DNA of 64,000 bases, from NCBI GenBank assembly GCA_029552825.1, contig JAKPDL010000002.1, positions 1-64,000 of the forward strand, written 5' to 3'. Below the pieces are notes generated by a model that did not search any database, was not told the DNA's origin, and saw only the letters and a list, made by a program, of their open reading frames with translations. The DNA comes from Bacteroidota bacterium. Its GTDB lineage: Bacteria > Bacteroidota > Bacteroidia > Bacteroidales > VadinHA17. Both the position numbers and the translations under genes were made by a program. Position 1 is the first letter of the stretch. Each line of letters starts with the position of its first letter. This document shows positions 56,453 to 64,000 of this stretch, one piece after another.

Positions 56453-57109
56453 ATGAGTATTCACAAGGAAGGATATAAGATACTTTTTTTCGGATTTCTT
56501 GTACTTGCCTTACTCAATGTTGTGGTAGGCATATTATGGCCCGGGCTTACCCTTTTCAGATGGGGCTTTTTGATATTCTCACTCCTTCTTTATATTTTCC
56601 TGCTCTTCTTTTTTCGTCTGCCCGAAAGAAAGATAGAGCCGGTTCACGGACTGGTTTATTCTCCTGCCGACGGGAAGGTGGTTGTAATAGAGGAAACATT
56701 TGAAAAAGAATACTTCAGGGACACCCGTCTGCAGATATCAATTTTTATGTCCCCTTTCAATATGCACAGTAACAGATATCCTGTTTCAGGGACAGTAAAA
56801 TATGTAAGTCATTCACCTGGCAGAAATATAGTTGCCTGGCACCCGAAATCGTCTGAACTAAATGAACGGACAAGCGTTGTAATAGAAACGCCCGACGGTA
56901 AGGAGATACTGGTACGCCAGATAGCAGGTGCAGTGGCAAGGCGAATTGTAACCTATGCAAAAAGGGGACAGGCTGTACAGCAGGGCGATGAGCTTGGATT
57001 TATTAAGTTCGGGTCGAGGGTTGACATTTTCCTGCCAGTGGGTACAGAAGTGGAAGTACCTTTACTTCAACACGTCAGGGCAAACAAAAGCATAATTGCA
57101 CGGCTATGA
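56453..57109 (+). CDS. psd: Phosphatidylserine decarboxylase (short form)
   Basis: The 218-residue precursor has two N-terminal helices (about 9-55) and the decarboxylase core: YSPADGKVVVIEE (near 68), ISIFMSPFNMHSNRYPVSG (about 94-112), and GFIKFGSRVDIFLP near 181. The Gly-Ser of FGSRVD is where the chain self-cleaves to form the pyruvoyl cofactor in this short family. It makes phosphatidylethanolamine in the inner membrane from the product of PssA. I use ATG 56453; the longer frame needs TTG. The stop overlaps the next start (ATGA). Confidence 0.94.
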   Translation: MSIHKEGYKILFFGFLVLALLNVVVGILWPGLTLFRWGFLIFSLLLYIFLLFFFRLPERKIEPVHGLVYSPADGKVVVIEETFEKEYFRDTRLQISIFMSPFNMHSNRYPVSGTVKYVSHSPGRNIVAWHPKSSELNERTSVVIETPDGKEILVRQIAGAVARRIVTYAKRGQAVQQGDELGFIKFGSRVDIFLPVGTEVEVPLLQHVRANKSIIARL

Positions 57110-58374
57110 AAAGTGAAAGTAAAAGTAAAGACCGTAAACCCGATGACAGAATTATAGAAATTACTCCCGATGTAAAGTGGATAGGAGTACTCGATTACGA
57201 TATCGTTACTTTCGATATTGTGATGGAGACAGAGTTTGGCACAACATACAACTCATATTTTATCAATGCTGAGAAAAAGGCTGTGGTTGAAGCTGCCAAG
57301 GACAGGTTCAGCGATGTTCAGATAAGCAAGTTAAAGAAGCTTTGCGATCCTTCCGAAATTCAATATATAATTCTTGACCATACCGAGCCCGACCATTCGG
57401 GCAACACCGGAAGACTGCTTGAACTGGCGCCCGATGCCACGGTTGTTGGCAGCGGAAATATGATAAGGTATCTTTCAGATATCATAAATAAGCCATTCAA
57501 ATCAATTGCTGTCAAAGATGGCGATACCCTCAGCCTTGGCAACAAAACACTACGGTTTATAGCTGCACCGAATCTTCACTGGCCCGATTCAATATTTACA
57601 TGGCTTGAGGAGGACAGGGTACTCTTTACCTGCGATATGTTCGGAGCTCACTACTGTTCAGAAGAGATGTTCAATGATTTTTCGGAGGATTATTTTAAGT
57701 CTTTTAAGTATTATTTTGATGTTATCCTGAGGCCCTTCAGCCGCTTTGCACTTAAGGCAATCGAAAAAATAAAACCGCTGGATATCAGGTTTATCTGCCC
57801 GGGGCATGGGCCTGTGCATCACAGGGATATTGAAAGGATAATTACGCTTACCGAAGAGTTGTCGAGGGAATATGTCGAAATTACTTCTGGAGGTGAAGTG
57901 AAGAACGTTTTGATTGCCTATGTTTCGGCTTATGGTTTTACAGGAAAGATGGCTGAAATAGTTGCTGAAGGAATAAAAGAAATTCCGGGGGTAAAGGCAA
58001 CTTTGCTTGATATAGAGAACATTTCAGCAGGTGAGCTGGATAAAGAGCTTATGAAAGCTGATGCATTGCTTGTAGGATCTCCAACGATAAATCAGAATAC
58101 GCTACTGCCTGTTTACAGACTCTTTGCTTTCATAAATCCTTTGCGCGACAGAGGCAAACCCGCAGGCTCTTTTGGTTCTTACGGATGGAGTGGTGAAGCT
58201 CCGGGTATAATTGCAGCTGCACTTAAGGGTCTGAAATTGGCCTATTTTGAAAATCCACTTACGGTGAAATTTTTCCCCGGAAACGAAAAAGCAGGTTTAC
58301 TGAAAGAATACGGCAGGAGATTCGGAGAATTTGTGCTTTCCCAATGCTCCGGAAAAAACCTGAATAAGGAATAA
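57106..58374 (+). CDS. Flavodiiron protein (FprA-type, rubredoxin:oxygen/NO oxidoreductase)
   Basis: A 422-residue cytoplasmic protein. The N-terminal metallo-beta-lactamase domain has the di-iron ligands HTEPDHSG (about 90-97), LHWPDSIFTW (near 159), CDMFGAHYC (near 176) and CPGHGPVHH (about 229-237). The C-terminal flavodoxin domain begins NVLIAYVSAYGFTGKMAEIV (about 266-285) and shows GSPTINQNTLLP. It reduces O2 to water or NO to N2O with electrons from a rubredoxin or similar carrier. Coupled to psd by a 4-base overlap, which looks like positional cotranscription and not a shared pathway. Confidence 0.92.
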   Translation: MKSESKSKDRKPDDRIIEITPDVKWIGVLDYDIVTFDIVMETEFGTTYNSYFINAEKKAVVEAAKDRFSDVQISKLKKLCDPSEIQYIILDHTEPDHSGNTGRLLELAPDATVVGSGNMIRYLSDIINKPFKSIAVKDGDTLSLGNKTLRFIAAPNLHWPDSIFTWLEEDRVLFTCDMFGAHYCSEEMFNDFSEDYFKSFKYYFDVILRPFSRFALKAIEKIKPLDIRFICPGHGPVHHRDIERIITLTEELSREYVEITSGGEVKNVLIAYVSAYGFTGKMAEIVAEGIKEIPGVKATLLDIENISAGELDKELMKADALLVGSPTINQNTLLPVYRLFAFINPLRDRGKPAGSFGSYGWSGEAPGIIAAALKGLKLAYFENPLTVKFFPGNEKAGLLKEYGRRFGEFVLSQCSGKNLNKE

Positions 58375-58431: not shown

Positions 58432-58860
58432 TTACGATATCTTGATCTGTTTCGTTACCTTCGATTTCTCTTCATGCATCTTTGGAAGAGTCACTGTAAG
58501 GATTCCGTCTTTATAGCTGGCTTCAATTTTTTCTCTGTCAACATTTTCAGGCAGAGAGAAGCTTCTGCAGAATGATGCATAGCTGAACTCTCTTCTCTTG
58601 AAATCCTCACGGCTCTCTTCCTTCTCCTCCTTGCGCTCCGAGGAGATTGTCAGAACATCCTCATTCAGCTCAATCTTCAGATCCTTTTTGTCAATGCCAG
58701 GAACTGCAAGATCAAGCGTGAATTTCTTCTCATCCTCTTTGATGTTTACAGCAGGCATCGAATGATACCTGGTTGTAAAGAACGGGAAGAAGAAATCATC
58801 ATCAAAGAGGTCAGACCATAAGAACGGTTTGTCACTTCTTCTTGTAAGCATCGGTAACAT
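58432..58860 (-). CDS. Hsp20/alpha-crystallin small heat-shock protein
   Basis: A 142-residue chaperone. The alpha-crystallin domain spans about 38-140: PAVNIKEDEKKFTLDLAVPG near the start, LKIELNEDVLTISSERKEEK in the middle and the conserved SYKDGILTVTLPK (about 118-130). It ends in a basic KVTKQIKIS tail containing the I-x-I oligomer motif. It holds unfolding proteins during heat or other stress. GGAGG-type sequence (AAAGGAGGGC on the minus strand near 58866-58875) lies before the start. No TAnnTTTG box is seen in the upstream gap; a cluster of palindromes is. Confidence 0.95.
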   Translation of the reverse strand: MLPMLTRRSDKPFLWSDLFDDDFFFPFFTTRYHSMPAVNIKEDEKKFTLDLAVPGIDKKDLKIELNEDVLTISSERKEEKEESREDFKRREFSYASFCRSFSLPENVDREKIEASYKDGILTVTLPKMHEEKSKVTKQIKIS

Positions 58861-59073: not shown

Positions 59074-60240
59074 ATGAAGAATTTTATAAGAAATATTCTG
59101 ATACTTGCAGGAATTGTATTTGTTGTTTTCTGTGTCTGGTACTTCAGGGAAATAGTAATCTACATACTTGTTGCAGGTGTTCTTTCCATTATGGGGAGAC
59201 CGCTTGTTGATCTTTTTGACCGGATAAAGATCAGAAAAATATCTATTCCAAAAGCGGTTTCTGCACTTCTGGCACTTTTAATTATATGGGGTCTGATTTT
59301 TCTCTTTTTCTACATATTTGTTCCCCTTGTTGCCAGTCAGATACAGCAACTTTCCTCAATCGACAGCGAACAACTTGTTAAGATAATTGAGGAGCCTATC
59401 AGAAAGACTGAAAACCTCTTACGGGCTTTAAATCCTGATCTTGAAGAGATATCAGTGAGAGCTTACATTGCCTCGAAAATAACTGATATTCTGAGCATTG
59501 AATTTGTACAGGACATGATAGGCTCTGCCGCCAGAACAATGGACAACATAGTGATTGCATTCTTTTCCATAAGTTTCATCACATTCTTTTTTCTTAAAGA
59601 CCAGCATCTTTTCTTTGAATCAATCGTTATGTGGGTGCCCGACAAATATGTGGATAATGTTACCCGTGCCCTTTATTCAATTAAGGCGCTTTTAACAAGG
59701 TATTTCGTGGGGATAGTGATTCAGAGCACCTGCATAATGATAATGATGACAACCGGAATGACTGTTGTTGGCATCGATTTCCATCAGGCACTTGTAATGG
59801 GGCTTATAGCAGGCATACTTAATGTGATTCCCTATGTGGGTCCGTGGCTTGGATTTTTCATAACAGTAACAATGGGCATTGCCTCTCATCTGGGATACGA
59901 TTTTCAGTCGGTTATTGTTCCACTGGTATGGAAGATGGCTCTAGTGGTTGCAATTACTCAGGCAACAGATAATGTTGTTTTTCAGCCGGTTATTTTCTCC
60001 AGCAGCGTCAGAGCCCATCCGCTTGAGATTTTTGTTGTGGTTCTTGCCGCAGGCTTCGCAGCCGGTATACCGGGTATGATTCTGGGTATACCTGCATACA
60101 CCGTGCTGAGAGTCTTTGCCCGGGAATTTTTCTATAACCTCAAAGCAGTACAGAAAATTACCTCAAGCCTTCCAGATACTGAAGAAATAATGGAGAAAAT
60201 AAAAGAAGAAGAAGAAAAAGAGCACGGGAAAAATCTTTGA
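59074..60240 (+). CDS. AI-2E family transporter (PerM-like)
   Basis: A 388-residue membrane protein with about eight helices. IVFVVFCVWYFREIVIYILV near the N-terminus, the central GLIAGILNVIPYVGPWLGFF (about 248-267, the conserved NxIPYxG loop) and the C-terminal GFAAGIPGMILGIPAYTVLR (about 330-349) are family hallmarks. Members are assigned to export of autoinducer-2, sodium or other small molecules; the substrate cannot be inferred. A charged Glu/Lys tail ends the protein. DUF4492 follows 21 bases on. Confidence 0.9.
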   Translation: MKNFIRNILILAGIVFVVFCVWYFREIVIYILVAGVLSIMGRPLVDLFDRIKIRKISIPKAVSALLALLIIWGLIFLFFYIFVPLVASQIQQLSSIDSEQLVKIIEEPIRKTENLLRALNPDLEEISVRAYIASKITDILSIEFVQDMIGSAARTMDNIVIAFFSISFITFFFLKDQHLFFESIVMWVPDKYVDNVTRALYSIKALLTRYFVGIVIQSTCIMIMMTTGMTVVGIDFHQALVMGLIAGILNVIPYVGPWLGFFITVTMGIASHLGYDFQSVIVPLVWKMALVVAITQATDNVVFQPVIFSSSVRAHPLEIFVVVLAAGFAAGIPGMILGIPAYTVLRVFAREFFYNLKAVQKITSSLPDTEEIMEKIKEEEEKEHGKNL

Positions 60241-60261
60241 GTTTTTCAACGAAAGATTGCT

Positions 60262-60483
60262 ATGTCATTTCTGAACATATTTAGAAAAATATTTGTTTTT
60301 TATCTCGATGGCTTCAGGAACATGTCAGATTGGGGCAGAAAAGTCTGGATAATAATACTGATTAAATTGTTCATTATATTTATTATTCTCAGGCTCTTCT
60401 TTTTCCCGGATGTTCTGAAAAAAAGTTTTCCTGACGACAGCAACAGAAGTAACTATATAAGGGAGCATTTATTATCAAAGTGA
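60262..60483 (+). CDS. DUF4492 single-span membrane protein
   Basis: A 73-residue protein with an amphipathic start (SFLNIFRKIFVFYLDGFRNM), a single membrane helix (about 27-46, VWIIILIKLFIIFIILRLFFF in overlapping parts) and a polar tail. This is the DUF4492 pattern, a family found next to cydA in Bacteroidota and some Campylobacterota. It lies 6 bases before cydA. The fixed position suggests a small subunit or assembly factor of cytochrome bd, but this is inference. Confidence 0.85.
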   Translation: MSFLNIFRKIFVFYLDGFRNMSDWGRKVWIIILIKLFIIFIILRLFFFPDVLKKSFPDDSNRSNYIREHLLSK

Positions 60484-60489
60484 AATCTG

Positions 60490-62061
60490 ATGATTGAGAA
60501 CATTGATCTGAGTCTTGTCAGCTGGTCCAGGGCGCAGTTTGCCCTTACAGCAATTTATCACTGGTTTTTCGTTCCTCTAACACTTGGCCTCTCATTCATT
60601 ATTGCCATGATGGAGACAATTTATTACAGGACAGGCAGTGAGGAATGGAAGAGGATAACGAAGTTCTGGATGAAACTTTTCGGGATAAATTTTGCAATTG
60701 GCGTTGCTACCGGGATAATACTCGAGTTTGAGTTTGGCACCAACTGGTCGGCGTATTCCTGGTTCGTGGGAGATATCTTCGGAACCCCTCTGGCTATAGA
60801 AGGCATACTTGCCTTTTTCCTTGAATCCACATTTATTGCTGTGATGTTTTTTGGCTGGAACAGGGTGAGCAAAAGGTTTCATCTTGTTTCCACGTGGCTC
60901 GTTGCTATAGGGGCGAGCCTGTCGGCATTGTGGATACTGGTTGCAAACGCATGGATGCAGAATCCTGTCGGTATGACCTTTAATCCCGAAACAGCCCGCA
61001 ACGAGATGACTAACTTTCTGGAAGTACTTTTCAATCCTGTTGCAGCCGATAAATTCCTGCATACAATCACTTCCGGATTTGTCCTTGCCTCTGTTTTTGT
61101 TGCGGGAATAAGTGCATGGTTTCTGCTTAAAAAAAGGGAAACATATCTTGCTACACGAAGCATTCTTATAGCAGGTATATTCGGTTTTCTTTCTTCTGTT
61201 TTGCTTGCAATCACAGGCGACATGTCGGCCCGCTCGGTGGCAAAATATCAGCCGGTGAAGTTTGCTTCGTTCGAAGCACTCTATGAAGGGAAAAGCAGGG
61301 CTCCCCTTGTTGCAGCAGGAATACTCAAAAAGGGAGAAAAGGGAGTGGGAAGAAAAAACATGCCGGAGTTTATATTTGCAATAGAGATTCCCAACCTTCT
61401 TTCATTTATGACCGGCGGAAGTAAGGATGCTTATGTACCTGGTATTTATGACCATATTGAAGGGAACCCCCGGGCAGGAATACTTTCATTTGCAGAGAAA
61501 AAAGAGCGGGGGCAGAAAGCTCGTGAAACACTGCTGGAATATAAAAAGGCAAAAGAGGCAGGGGATGAGACAAAAGCATCGGATATTGCCGCTCTTTTTA
61601 CCTCAAAAGACTTCAGGGAAAACTATTTCAGATATTTTGGGTATGCTTATATAGACAATCCGGAAGATATCATACCTGACATCCGGGTATCTTTTTACAC
61701 TTTTCATCTCATGGTGCTACTGGGTTTCTTCTTTATACTTCTGTTTGCTCTTATGCTGTGGTTTTTGTTCCGAAATAATATCCGGAAGCATAAATGGCTT
61801 TTGTGGATAATGCTCCTTTCAATACCTCTGCCATATCTTGCCAGTGAGCTGGGGTGGGTGCTTGCAGAGATGGGCCGCCAACCCTGGATAATACAGGATC
61901 TCATGCCAGTATCAGTGGGTGTTACAAACCTTAAGTCAGGCAATGTACAAACCACCTTCTGGCTCTTTGCGGTTCTGTTTACTGCGCTTCTTATTGCTGA
62001 AATCTCCATTATGGTGAAACAGGTTAAGAACGGACCCGAAAAAACGGAGGAAAAGTTATGA
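60490..62061 (+). CDS. cydA: Cytochrome bd ubiquinol/menaquinol oxidase subunit I
   Basis: The 523-residue subunit carries the three haems of cytochrome bd. SRAQFALTAIYHWFFVPLTL near the start gives the haem b595 ligand His24; LHTITSGFVLAS gives a second His near 192; FHLMVLLGFF gives the haem b558 Met near 408; and GWVLAEMGRQPWII near 455-468 is the GRQPW motif. The Q-loop contains KYQPVKFASFEALYEGK and is of medium length. It reduces oxygen to water with quinol. cydB overlaps by 4 bases (ATGA). Confidence 0.97.
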   Translation: MIENIDLSLVSWSRAQFALTAIYHWFFVPLTLGLSFIIAMMETIYYRTGSEEWKRITKFWMKLFGINFAIGVATGIILEFEFGTNWSAYSWFVGDIFGTPLAIEGILAFFLESTFIAVMFFGWNRVSKRFHLVSTWLVAIGASLSALWILVANAWMQNPVGMTFNPETARNEMTNFLEVLFNPVAADKFLHTITSGFVLASVFVAGISAWFLLKKRETYLATRSILIAGIFGFLSSVLLAITGDMSARSVAKYQPVKFASFEALYEGKSRAPLVAAGILKKGEKGVGRKNMPEFIFAIEIPNLLSFMTGGSKDAYVPGIYDHIEGNPRAGILSFAEKKERGQKARETLLEYKKAKEAGDETKASDIAALFTSKDFRENYFRYFGYAYIDNPEDIIPDIRVSFYTFHLMVLLGFFFILLFALMLWFLFRNNIRKHKWLLWIMLLSIPLPYLASELGWVLAEMGRQPWIIQDLMPVSVGVTNLKSGNVQTTFWLFAVLFTALLIAEISIMVKQVKNGPEKTEEKL

Positions 62062-63179
62062 TGTCACATGCATTTCTTCAGCATTACTGGTGGATTGTGA
62101 TCTCACTGCTCGGCGGTCTGCTCGGTTTTCTTATGTTTGTACAGGGGGGACAGACTTTTATTTATTCATTGCCTGCAAATGCCATGCAGCGTAAAATGAT
62201 TGTAAATGCACTGGGCAGAAAATGGGAGTTTACATTTACCACACTGGTTACTTTCGGCGGAGCTTTTTTTGCCTCATTTCCACTTTTTTATGCCACAAGT
62301 TTTGGCGGTGCTTACTGGTTGTGGATGCTGATACTCTTTAGTTTTGTCATTCAGGCTGTTGCATACGAATACAGATCCAAACCCTCAAATGTCCTCGGAA
62401 GTAATACTTATGATATCTTCCTGCTTCTTAACGGTTCACTGGGACCATTTCTGACAGGTATAGCGGTTGCAACATTTTTTACGGGTGCCCACTTCTCCCT
62501 CGACAACCTGAACAGAGTCACCTGGCAGACAAATTTACACGGCCTCGAAGCACTTGCCGACATACGGAACATTGCTCTGGGATTTGCACTTCTTTTTCTT
62601 GCCAGGGTGAATGGGTTACTATTTCTTTTAAATACTGTTGATGATGAGGAAATAATTTCAAAGGCCAGAAACAAAGTACTTTTCAACGCACTCTTCTTTC
62701 TTGTTTTTTTCCTTTATTTCATACTTACGATTTTTCTCAAGGAAGGATTTGCAGTTGAACCAGCGACCGGAGAGATTTTAGTTCAGAAATTTAAGTACCT
62801 GAAAAACCTGCTTCAGATGCCGCCGGTACTGATTGTGTTTATTGCCGGTGTGGCAGGCGTGCTTTACGGTATTTATATTACAGTGTTTGCAGGAAGCAGA
62901 AAAGGCATCTGGTTTTCCGGCGCAGGATCAGTTATGGCTGTTTTTGCCCTGTTTCTTACTGCAGGACTGAACAATACAGCCTTTTACCCTTCTGTTAATG
63001 ATATTCAGAATTCCCTTACTCTGCAGAGGGCGTCCTCAAGCAGGTTCACGCTCGAAACTATGATGTATGTTTCATTTATTATCCCATTTGTTATTGCATA
63101 CATCTGGTATGCATGGAGGGCTGTTACACAACGCAAAATTACAGCTGAAGATATTGAAAAGGATGGACATGCTTATTAA
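62058..63179 (+). CDS. cydB: Cytochrome bd oxidase subunit II
   Basis: A 373-residue protein with about nine helices. HAFLQHYWWIVISLLGGLLG and FLMFVQGGQTFIYSLPAN at the N-terminus, GSNTYDIFLLLNGSLGPFLT (about 114-133) and the C-terminal SFIIPFVIAYIWYAWRAVT match CydB of the type seen in Bacteroidota. It begins in the cydA stop (ATGA) after a GGAGGAAAA ribosome-binding site. A small membrane ORF starts 20 bases after its stop. Confidence 0.95.
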   Translation: MMSHAFLQHYWWIVISLLGGLLGFLMFVQGGQTFIYSLPANAMQRKMIVNALGRKWEFTFTTLVTFGGAFFASFPLFYATSFGGAYWLWMLILFSFVIQAVAYEYRSKPSNVLGSNTYDIFLLLNGSLGPFLTGIAVATFFTGAHFSLDNLNRVTWQTNLHGLEALADIRNIALGFALLFLARVNGLLFLLNTVDDEEIISKARNKVLFNALFFLVFFLYFILTIFLKEGFAVEPATGEILVQKFKYLKNLLQMPPVLIVFIAGVAGVLYGIYITVFAGSRKGIWFSGAGSVMAVFALFLTAGLNNTAFYPSVNDIQNSLTLQRASSSRFTLETMMYVSFIIPFVIAYIWYAWRAVTQRKITAEDIEKDGHAY

Positions 63180-63199
63180 TACAAAAAGATTATAGACCA

Positions 63200-63364
63200 A
63201 TGTACCTTGATCAGCTCGTGATATACCTTACATGGCCGGCTTTTATAATCATAAGCTGGATAATAATAAAATCGGCACTCATTCTATACGAAAGAAAATA
63301 CCCGTTCAGGGATGCCGAGAGATCTCATTCTTCAGAAAAGGAGCCCAGGCAAGGGAAAGAATAA
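63200..63364 (+). CDS. Small single-span membrane protein after cydB (CydX-like candidate)
   Basis: A 54-residue ORF with ATG at 63200 and stop at 63362-63364. Residues 1-5 are MYLDQ, about 7-30 are a hydrophobic helix (VIYLTWPAFIIISWIIIKSA and on), then YERKYPFRDAE and a charged tail. A third, small single-helix subunit (CydX, about 30-50 residues) follows cydAB in many bacteria, and this has the right size, place and topology, but no clear sequence likeness to CydX can be claimed. The last 59 bases overlap the 3' end of pssA on the opposite strand. Confidence 0.6.
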   Translation: MYLDQLVIYLTWPAFIIISWIIIKSALILYERKYPFRDAERSHSSEKEPRQGKE

Positions 63365-64000
63365 TATATGCCGGTATTATAAGTGCAAAGCCTCTGGCAC
63401 CGAAAACTGCAACAAAAATAATACTCAGAGCTGCCATAATATACCTTGCCTCATTCCCCTTGATCTTCAAATTTTTTATTTTAAGCGAAATCATTGGCAG
63501 GTTGCTTACCATAAGCAGAGAGACAATGATAACGAAAAATATAGTTAAGAACTGATATTTTGTGAAAAGCGTCACAAAAAAGTTATCTGAATAGGCTGCA
63601 GCAAGGCAAAGCGATATAACTGAGAGGGCTGCTGCCGGGGTAGGAAGCCCTCTGAAAACAACCGACTGTGAGGTGTCGATATTGAATTTTGCAAGACGCA
63701 GACCGGCACAAACAGCATAAAATGCCGAAATCACTGCGTAAATTATGCTGTATACATTATTATCGCTGAAGAATATACCTGTACTGTAAATAATAATTCC
63801 CGGTGCCACTCCAAAGCTTACTACATCTGCAAGGCTGTCGAGTTCCTTGCCCAGGTCGGAGTATGCATTCAGAATTCGTGATGCAAACCCGTCGAGAAAA
63901 TCAAAAACCATGGCAGCAAGCACCAGCCAGCATGCTGCTGCCGTATTTCCTTTAATGATAAAAATAATTGATAAAAAACCTGATGCAAGGTTTAAAGAGG
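63306..64000 (-). CDS. pssA: CDP-diacylglycerol-serine O-phosphatidyltransferase, 5' end cut by the window
   Basis: The frame is open from the window end to the stop at 63306-63308, giving 231 residues of a membrane enzyme. The CDP-alcohol phosphatidyltransferase signature is seen as DFLDGFASRILNAYSDLGKE followed by LDSLAD (D-G-x2-A/S-R-x8-G-x3-D-x3-D), after the first helix NLASGFLSIIFIIKG. It makes phosphatidylserine from CDP-diacylglycerol and serine; psd (56453) then gives phosphatidylethanolamine and cdsA (55575) supplies the CDP-diacylglycerol. About 10-15 N-terminal residues are probably beyond the window. It converges on the small ORF after cydB. Confidence 0.93.
   Translation of the reverse strand, partial: SLNLASGFLSIIFIIKGNTAAACWLVLAAMVFDFLDGFASRILNAYSDLGKELDSLADVVSFGVAPGIIIYSTGIFFSDNNVYSIIYAVISAFYAVCAGLRLAKFNIDTSQSVVFRGLPTPAAALSVISLCLAAAYSDNFFVTLFTKYQFLTIFFVIIVSLLMVSNLPMISLKIKNLKIKGNEARYIMAALSIIFVAVFGARGFALIIPAYIILSLAWAPFLKNEISRHP

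Follow-up and report, generated by a model that had tools for sequence, protein, structure and literature searches.

The small open reading frame directly behind cydAB in the DNA analyzed here (the window, a stretch of 64,000 nucleotides from a member of the Bacteroidales) is a real gene for a conserved membrane protein with one helix. We assign a probability of about 0.78 to the reading that it is the CydY/CioY of the Bacteroidota, a single-helix subunit of long-Q-loop cytochrome bd encoded in a DUF4492-cydA-cydB-cydY operon, whose helix would clamp CydA. In many Bacteroidota, cytochrome bd serves as the oxygen-scavenging oxidase, and usually two subunits of it are named. The enzyme is also discussed as a drug target (PMC8951039). 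The features of the window concerned are:

60262..60483, plus strand: DUF4492, a single-helix protein encoded first in the operon (PF14899, E 3.3e-27)
60490..62061, plus strand: cydA, cytochrome bd subunit I of the long-Q-loop type (PF01654, E 4.8e-166)
62058..63179, plus strand: cydB, cytochrome bd subunit II (PF02322, E 5.9e-63)
63200..63364, plus strand: cydY-like ORF for a 54-residue single-helix membrane protein, putatively of the CydY/CioY type (ATG at 63200, stop codon ending at 63364)
63200..63304, plus strand: conserved core of this ORF, residues 1-35, comprising the helix with Y9, W12-P13, W20 and E31 and lying outside pssA
63305..63364, plus strand: charged, lineage-specific C-terminal tail, predicted with low confidence by AlphaFold, that runs into the 3' end of the convergent pssA
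63306..63998, minus strand: pssA, convergent neighbor that extends beyond the end of the window (TIGR00473, E 2.3e-39)

The DUF4492 gene is separated from cydA by 6 nt, cydA and cydB overlap by 4 nt, and exactly 20 nt on the same strand lie between the end of cydB and the start of the small ORF. The translation of this ORF, MYLDQLVIYLTWPAFIIISWIIIKSALILYERKYPFRDAERSHSSEKEPRQGKE (54 amino acids, 54 codons), has one match in its own genome, and only the last 59 nt are shared with pssA. A preliminary description of the region had reported a clean ATG-to-stop frame of 54 residues 20 bases after cydB and, with DUF4492 in front of cydA, a single-helix protein at both ends of the operon; the coordinates and the PF14899 match agree with this layout. 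Judged from hydropathy peaks, the CydA of the window has roughly 150-165 amino acids between TM6 and TM7, compared with 149-220 given for long Q-loops (PMC4325964), and it can be aligned with E. coli CydA (6rko_A) right through the Q-loop. A scan of positions 60000-64000 with Rfam yielded nothing at gathering scores. Promoter-like patterns (12 versus 8.1 with an sd of 3.7 in shuffled sequences) and terminator-like patterns (3 versus 3.9) showed no clear excess. Just upstream of the cyd operon we observed a gene for a protein with ODP-type beta-lactamase and flavodoxin domains (57106-58374), which we take to be flavodiiron-like, and an Hsp20 gene (58432-58860); genes for the handling of oxygen or stress may be clustered there.

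A search within the same genus recovered the ORF in 24 of 35 other genomes at E<=1e-4, and the alignment of 32 members gave the consensus MYIxxILxYLxWPAFIxxSWFxIKxALxxYEKKFP. Extending the search with a profile to 295 genomes of the Bacteroidales resulted in 114 matches at E<=1e-4 in 113 genomes, nine of which, including that of the window, had contributed rows to the profile. For the 100 matches whose genome had its cydB among the 150 cydB places listed, the linkage could be judged: 99 were located directly behind cydB on the same strand at a median distance of 25 nt, as expected from the proposal that the ORF is conserved in this position, and the remaining one, in G700, is on a different contig from cydB. 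At 50 of the 150 listed places the genome had no adjacent match. Culturable Bacteroidota with the gene behind cydB include Prolixibacter, Sunxiuqinia, Marinilabilia and Carboxylicivirga. In a phylum-wide sample of 395 genomes, five of which besides that of the window belong to the same order, none of the 394 others matched at E<=1e-4 and the genome of the window alone reached this limit; two partial matches between 1e-4 and 1e-3 were both interrupted by a stop codon.

The family is under purifying selection. Within the first 35 codons dN/dS was below 1 in all 122 usable pairs with a median of 0.13, after exclusion of 28 saturated pairs; these pairs are not independent, some genomes occur in two collections, and all pairs exclude the window, since its nearest relatives are saturated in dS. 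The predicted dN/dS below 1 was thus found for the family, from pairs of its other members. Over the same codons the differences within the family are distributed over the codon positions as 1794/1114/3377, and a comparison of the window with its closest relative (L032) gave 12/4/20.

AlphaFold2, run with 21 sequences, predicted a single helix from residue 3 to 33, with a pLDDT of about 90 over residues 11-30 and low confidence for the tail, in line with the one hydrophobic helix of the preliminary description. The same description had emphasized the sequence YERKYPFRD and the charged tail: the part YE[RK]K[YF]P is indeed conserved in near relatives, whereas FRD and the remaining tail are not. 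Conservation covers residues 1-35, and the tail (FRDAERS...) is not common to the 31 other aligned members. Residue frequencies were taken from a MAFFT alignment of 132 Bacteroidota proteins. The position of W12 is Trp in 121 of them, that of P13 is Pro in 129, that of I16 is Ile in 121, and that of W20, eight residues after the Trp, is Tyr, Trp or Phe in 124. At the position of Y9, three residues before the Trp, Tyr (34), Phe (28) and Leu (66) occur. The position of E31 (W+19) is acidic in 103 of the 132 proteins and in 26 of 35 proteins from Campylobacterota. Counting from an anchoring Trp depended on the rule used: the first rule chose the wrong Trp in sequences of the type ILWLLSWP and gave an acid at +19 in 58%, and a second rule, which preferred Trp-Pro, found the acid in 71 of the 85 proteins that it could anchor out of 86, with counts for Trp and Pro that lean on the rule itself. 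Under the first rule, all 81 proteins counted have more Lys and Arg after W+10 than ahead of the anchoring Trp, so that according to the positive-inside rule the C-terminus would be cytoplasmic.

The assignment to CydY/CioY is based on a comparison with Campylobacterota. We ran an HMM built exclusively from Bacteroidota sequences over 2448 ORFs (20-150 amino acids, six frames) in 40 cyd loci, which were hand-picked down the score list from 64 DUF4492-bearing operons, leaving out many near-copies and the weakest ones. It produced 32 matches at E<=1e-3, 31 of them directly after cydB, one 463 nt behind it (operon L266, G870:C1) and none elsewhere. With a looser motif rule a candidate was detected in 39 of the 40 loci; the seven beyond those of the HMM are weaker. 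Alignment of the Bacteroidota with the Campylobacterota profile by hhalign gave a probability of 98% and an E of 3.1e-13 over 39 ungapped columns, compared with 2% and an E of 0.024 for a control against DUF4492. By this profile comparison the proteins of the two phyla are homologous. The control led us to reject kinship of the small ORF with DUF4492, which would have placed two related helices at opposite ends of the operon.

The Campylobacterota protein already has a name. Allen et al. (2014) named CydY in long-Q-loop operons without CydX from Epsilon- and Deltaproteobacteria, suggested that it is maybe an independent invention, and also mentioned an upstream hydrophobic small protein for such operons (PMC4325964), a description that fits DUF4492; the stem "bacteroid" is absent from the text of PMC4325964. 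In C. jejuni, CydY was renamed CioY, a protein of 34 amino acids with conserved Trp, Pro and Tyr, whose AlphaFold-multimer pose resembles CydX on CydA (Froschauer, Svensson et al. 2025, PMC11955535). The identity of the Campylobacterota matches with published CioY is probable, judged by position, the length of 34 amino acids and the conserved residues and not by a comparison of the CioY letters. Like CydY/CioY, which measures 31-63 amino acids in the Campylobacterota loci examined, the ORF of the window is located right after cydB behind a long-Q-loop CydA, encodes one predicted helix that has a Trp, usually Trp-Pro, at its start, an aromatic residue at W+8 and mostly an acid at W+19, and gives no PF08173 match; DUF4492 is common in the genomes of both phyla. 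Differences exist as well: the N-terminus is usually longer in Bacteroidota (MYIxxILxY), W+8 is mostly Tyr or Trp followed by a mixed residue in contrast to Tyr-Lys/Arg-Phe in Campylobacterota, W+14 is Ala instead of Asn, the EKKFP end belongs to the near relatives of the window, and the naming by Allen et al. covers Epsilon and Delta species (PMC4325964).

The gene is not present behind every cydB. In the same-genus sample, cydB is present in 32 of 35 genomes and 8 of these 32 have no match at E<=1e-4, one of the eight (G021) having a cydB cut by the contig end. Among 120 loci that include the end of cydB, in which some genomes are represented twice, 112 continue for at least 300 nt beyond it; the small gene is missing from 25 of these 112, one of which, L080, is a distant CydB paralogue. 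At seven same-genus loci (L033, L037, L039, L040, L051, L054 and L059) cydB faces pssA across 24-192 nt without a small gene, and these genomes contain no match elsewhere at E<=1. On a CydB tree of 149 rows, calculated with a quick method, the absence label (25 rows) changes 10 times; at least eight of these changes are forced by starred branches, one of them being the paralogue, and the tree does not tell gain from loss. Since the small gene is widely spread, we interpret the absences as probable losses. The many loci that lack the gene and retain cydAB are scattered over the tree, which argues against a strict requirement for it, unlike E. coli CydX, which is required (PMC6005532). For P. 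gingivalis, a study reports no CydX and neither CydY nor CydZ immediately downstream of cydAB (PMC4668044), in agreement with an absence in some lineages of the Bacteroidales. A second and more distant cydB occurs in at least two genomes of the genus: next to that of G018 (L070, C33) lies a small ORF with Leu in place of the conserved Trp, and in G019 (L074, C329) the contig ends within this gene.

E. coli CydX lies against TM1, TM5 and TM6 of CydA, and its Glu25 acts like a float on the cytoplasmic face (PMC6853902); a review lists TM1, 4, 5, 6 and 7 as contacts (PMC8951039). By homology, the small protein of the window, if translated, would span the membrane with the N-terminus, which bears little charge, on the periplasmic side and the C-terminus, rich in Lys and Arg, on the cytoplasmic side. 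Its conserved face, with the Trp-Pro and the aromatic residue eight positions on, would pack lengthwise on CydA beside heme b558, at the site occupied by CydX in E. coli, and the acidic residue 19 positions after the Trp would mark the cytoplasmic edge like Glu25 of CydX. A helix in this position may clamp the heme-binding bundles and thereby aid the assembly or stability of the di-heme site. A coevolution analysis of CydA and the small protein (167 pairs, mean-field DCA) placed 19 of the top 40 pairs in TM5/TM6 compared with 8.9 expected. When the analysis was repeated with the TM segments only, the number was 16 of 40, versus between 5 and 17 in 22 sets with partners shuffled inside each phylum; because shuffled pairings show the enrichment too, which stems from variable columns, it is not evidence of contact. 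The mean score of the top 40 pairs was 1.44 compared with a maximum of 1.27 in the shuffles, an excess that shared ancestry alone can produce, and a depth correlation bearing on the topology was absent from the 167 pairs.

Absence of the gene beside retained cydAB in many relatives would also suit an accessory role, in which the conserved membrane protein, instead of being a stable subunit, acts transiently as an assembly or heme-insertion factor or in regulating the oxidase. We consider this rather unlikely, because the homologous CioY of C. jejuni was recovered with CioA by reciprocal coimmunoprecipitation (PMC11955535), and size, position and helix match those of structural subunits.

A stable subunit of this size and position could be a true CydX, that is, a diverged member of the PF08173 family. 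CydX is defined by the motif YxxWxxGx15[E/D] (PMC4325964), and Y9, W12 and E31 of the window reproduce the spacing of Y3, W6 and E25 without a gap. Thirteen CydX/AppX proteins were collected as a reference, using 12 of 218 plasmid records and leaving out a short CydX-annotated plasmid match that overlaps cydB (L281). Against the CydX profile, hhalign aligned the Bacteroidota family ungapped in the Y3/W6/E25 register with a probability of 49% (E 1.7e-4) and the Campylobacterota family with 75% (E 2.5e-5); when the columns of the CydX profile were permuted, scores as high as those observed arose in 1 of 150 and 0 of 150 cases, respectively. However, PF08173 matched all 13 CydX proteins and none of 32 Bacteroidota or 35 Campylobacterota members in a scan with a limit of E 10, in which the HMMER filters drop most matches above 0.1, and an assignment to CydX by Pfam was rejected. 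The glycine of the motif (G9 of CydX) corresponds to F15 in the window and to Gly in 0 of 132 Bacteroidota proteins, the Tyr is only partly kept, and Pro, the usual residue after the Trp here, follows it in none of the 13 CydX proteins. It is therefore improbable that the protein is a bona fide CydX; it probably works like CydX and is not a member of its family, which is in accordance with the preliminary view of a protein in the CydX position that is not evidently CydX. Gene position, size, single helix and Trp-x18-acid spacing are shared with CydX, and the profiles are no more than suggestive of a distant homology. Whether CydX, CydY/CioY and the Bacteroidota protein form one ancient superfamily we regard as possible, with the balance slightly against it, a weight lowered because the CydX Tyr is only partly conserved in the larger alignment. 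If they do, long-Q-loop cytochromes bd would have the small helix with Trp-x18-acid in common, CydY would have no separate origin, and Bacteroidota lineages without the protein would be cases of secondary loss.

Two further small subunits were compared. CydZ (PF10617/DUF2474) is likewise a small helical protein after cydB with a conserved Trp and occurs in short-Q-loop operons (PMC4325964); it was rejected because the ORF has no PF10617 match and the CydA of the window has a long Q-loop. CydH/YnhF, the other one-helix subunit of cytochrome bd-I from E. coli, is set apart by its description, with a gene outside the operon and binding to the other side of CydA (PMC8951039, PMC6853902). The name CydY is also used for CydH/YnhF by some authors, which is a collision of names.

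The ORF is short and the region contains many overlapping ORFs of similar length, but a chance or non-coding frame, or a conservation imposed by the overlapping 3' end of pssA, is hardly credible and was rejected in view of the order-wide conservation of the protein sequence, the dN/dS of about 0.13 in the family, the pattern of differences between the window and L032, and a conserved core (63200-63304) that stops short of the pssA 3' end at 63306. The reservation that pssA might explain the conservation is thereby removed. Aside from the window, the ORF ends before the pssA alignment at 18 of the 22 same-genus loci with both genes, and at the other four (L045, L055, L057 and L076) the two touch or overlap as in the window, counted by alignment ends and not by gene ends. 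At several loci (L061, L062, L066, L069 and L070) the core is kept without pssA nearby.

DUF4492, encoded ahead of cydA, is a steadier companion of cydAB than the small gene: it was found in 185 of the 295 genomes of the order (E<=0.001) and cydB in 192 (E<=1e-20), compared with 113 for the small gene (E<=1e-4). In the phylum of a MAG labelled Campylobacterota, 64 of 150 genomes have a DUF4492 that passes the Pfam cut-off. A MAG contig with the label Campylobacterota (L194), whose DUF4492 was among the best 80 matches to a Bacteroidota query, may be a binning error. DUF4492 had no match in the PDB at E<=1, and a full-text search of the open-licence literature found no paper that uses this name. 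An 82-residue protein encoded upstream of cydAB in P. gingivalis has been called CydW (PMC4668044); matched by this description and not by its letters, it is probably DUF4492. The cyd operons of Campylobacterota and Bacteroidota are close relatives. The trees, both calculated with quick methods, disagree on which phylum nests in which: Campylobacterota are nested in Bacteroidota in the CydB tree, and Bacteroidota in Campylobacterota in a CydA tree of 61 rows rooted on E. coli (support 86).

Scans of the small-ORF family against Pfam and NCBIfam gave no convincing match, PDB chains gave no meaningful one (best E 2.2), and searches of the open-licence literature, judged by titles, the beginnings of abstracts and individual passages, brought up no paper describing this Bacteroidota protein. 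The wider family, named CydY/CioY in Campylobacterota, is thus without a Pfam or NCBIfam match but not unknown. To the extent of our searches, the new points are how widely the family occurs in Bacteroidota, that Pfam, NCBIfam and the PDB offer no match to it, that DUF4492 and CydY occur together in two phyla, and that close relatives repeatedly lack the gene. Annotation built on Pfam and NCBIfam would have no model for the CydY-like protein of Bacteroidota. Close relatives that have the cydB-pssA neighborhood and lack the small gene are natural deletion strains for the function of a small subunit of cytochrome bd. If the CydY/CioY reading is true, many bd oxidases of the Bacteroidales would have four subunits or partners, namely DUF4492, CydA, CydB and CydY.
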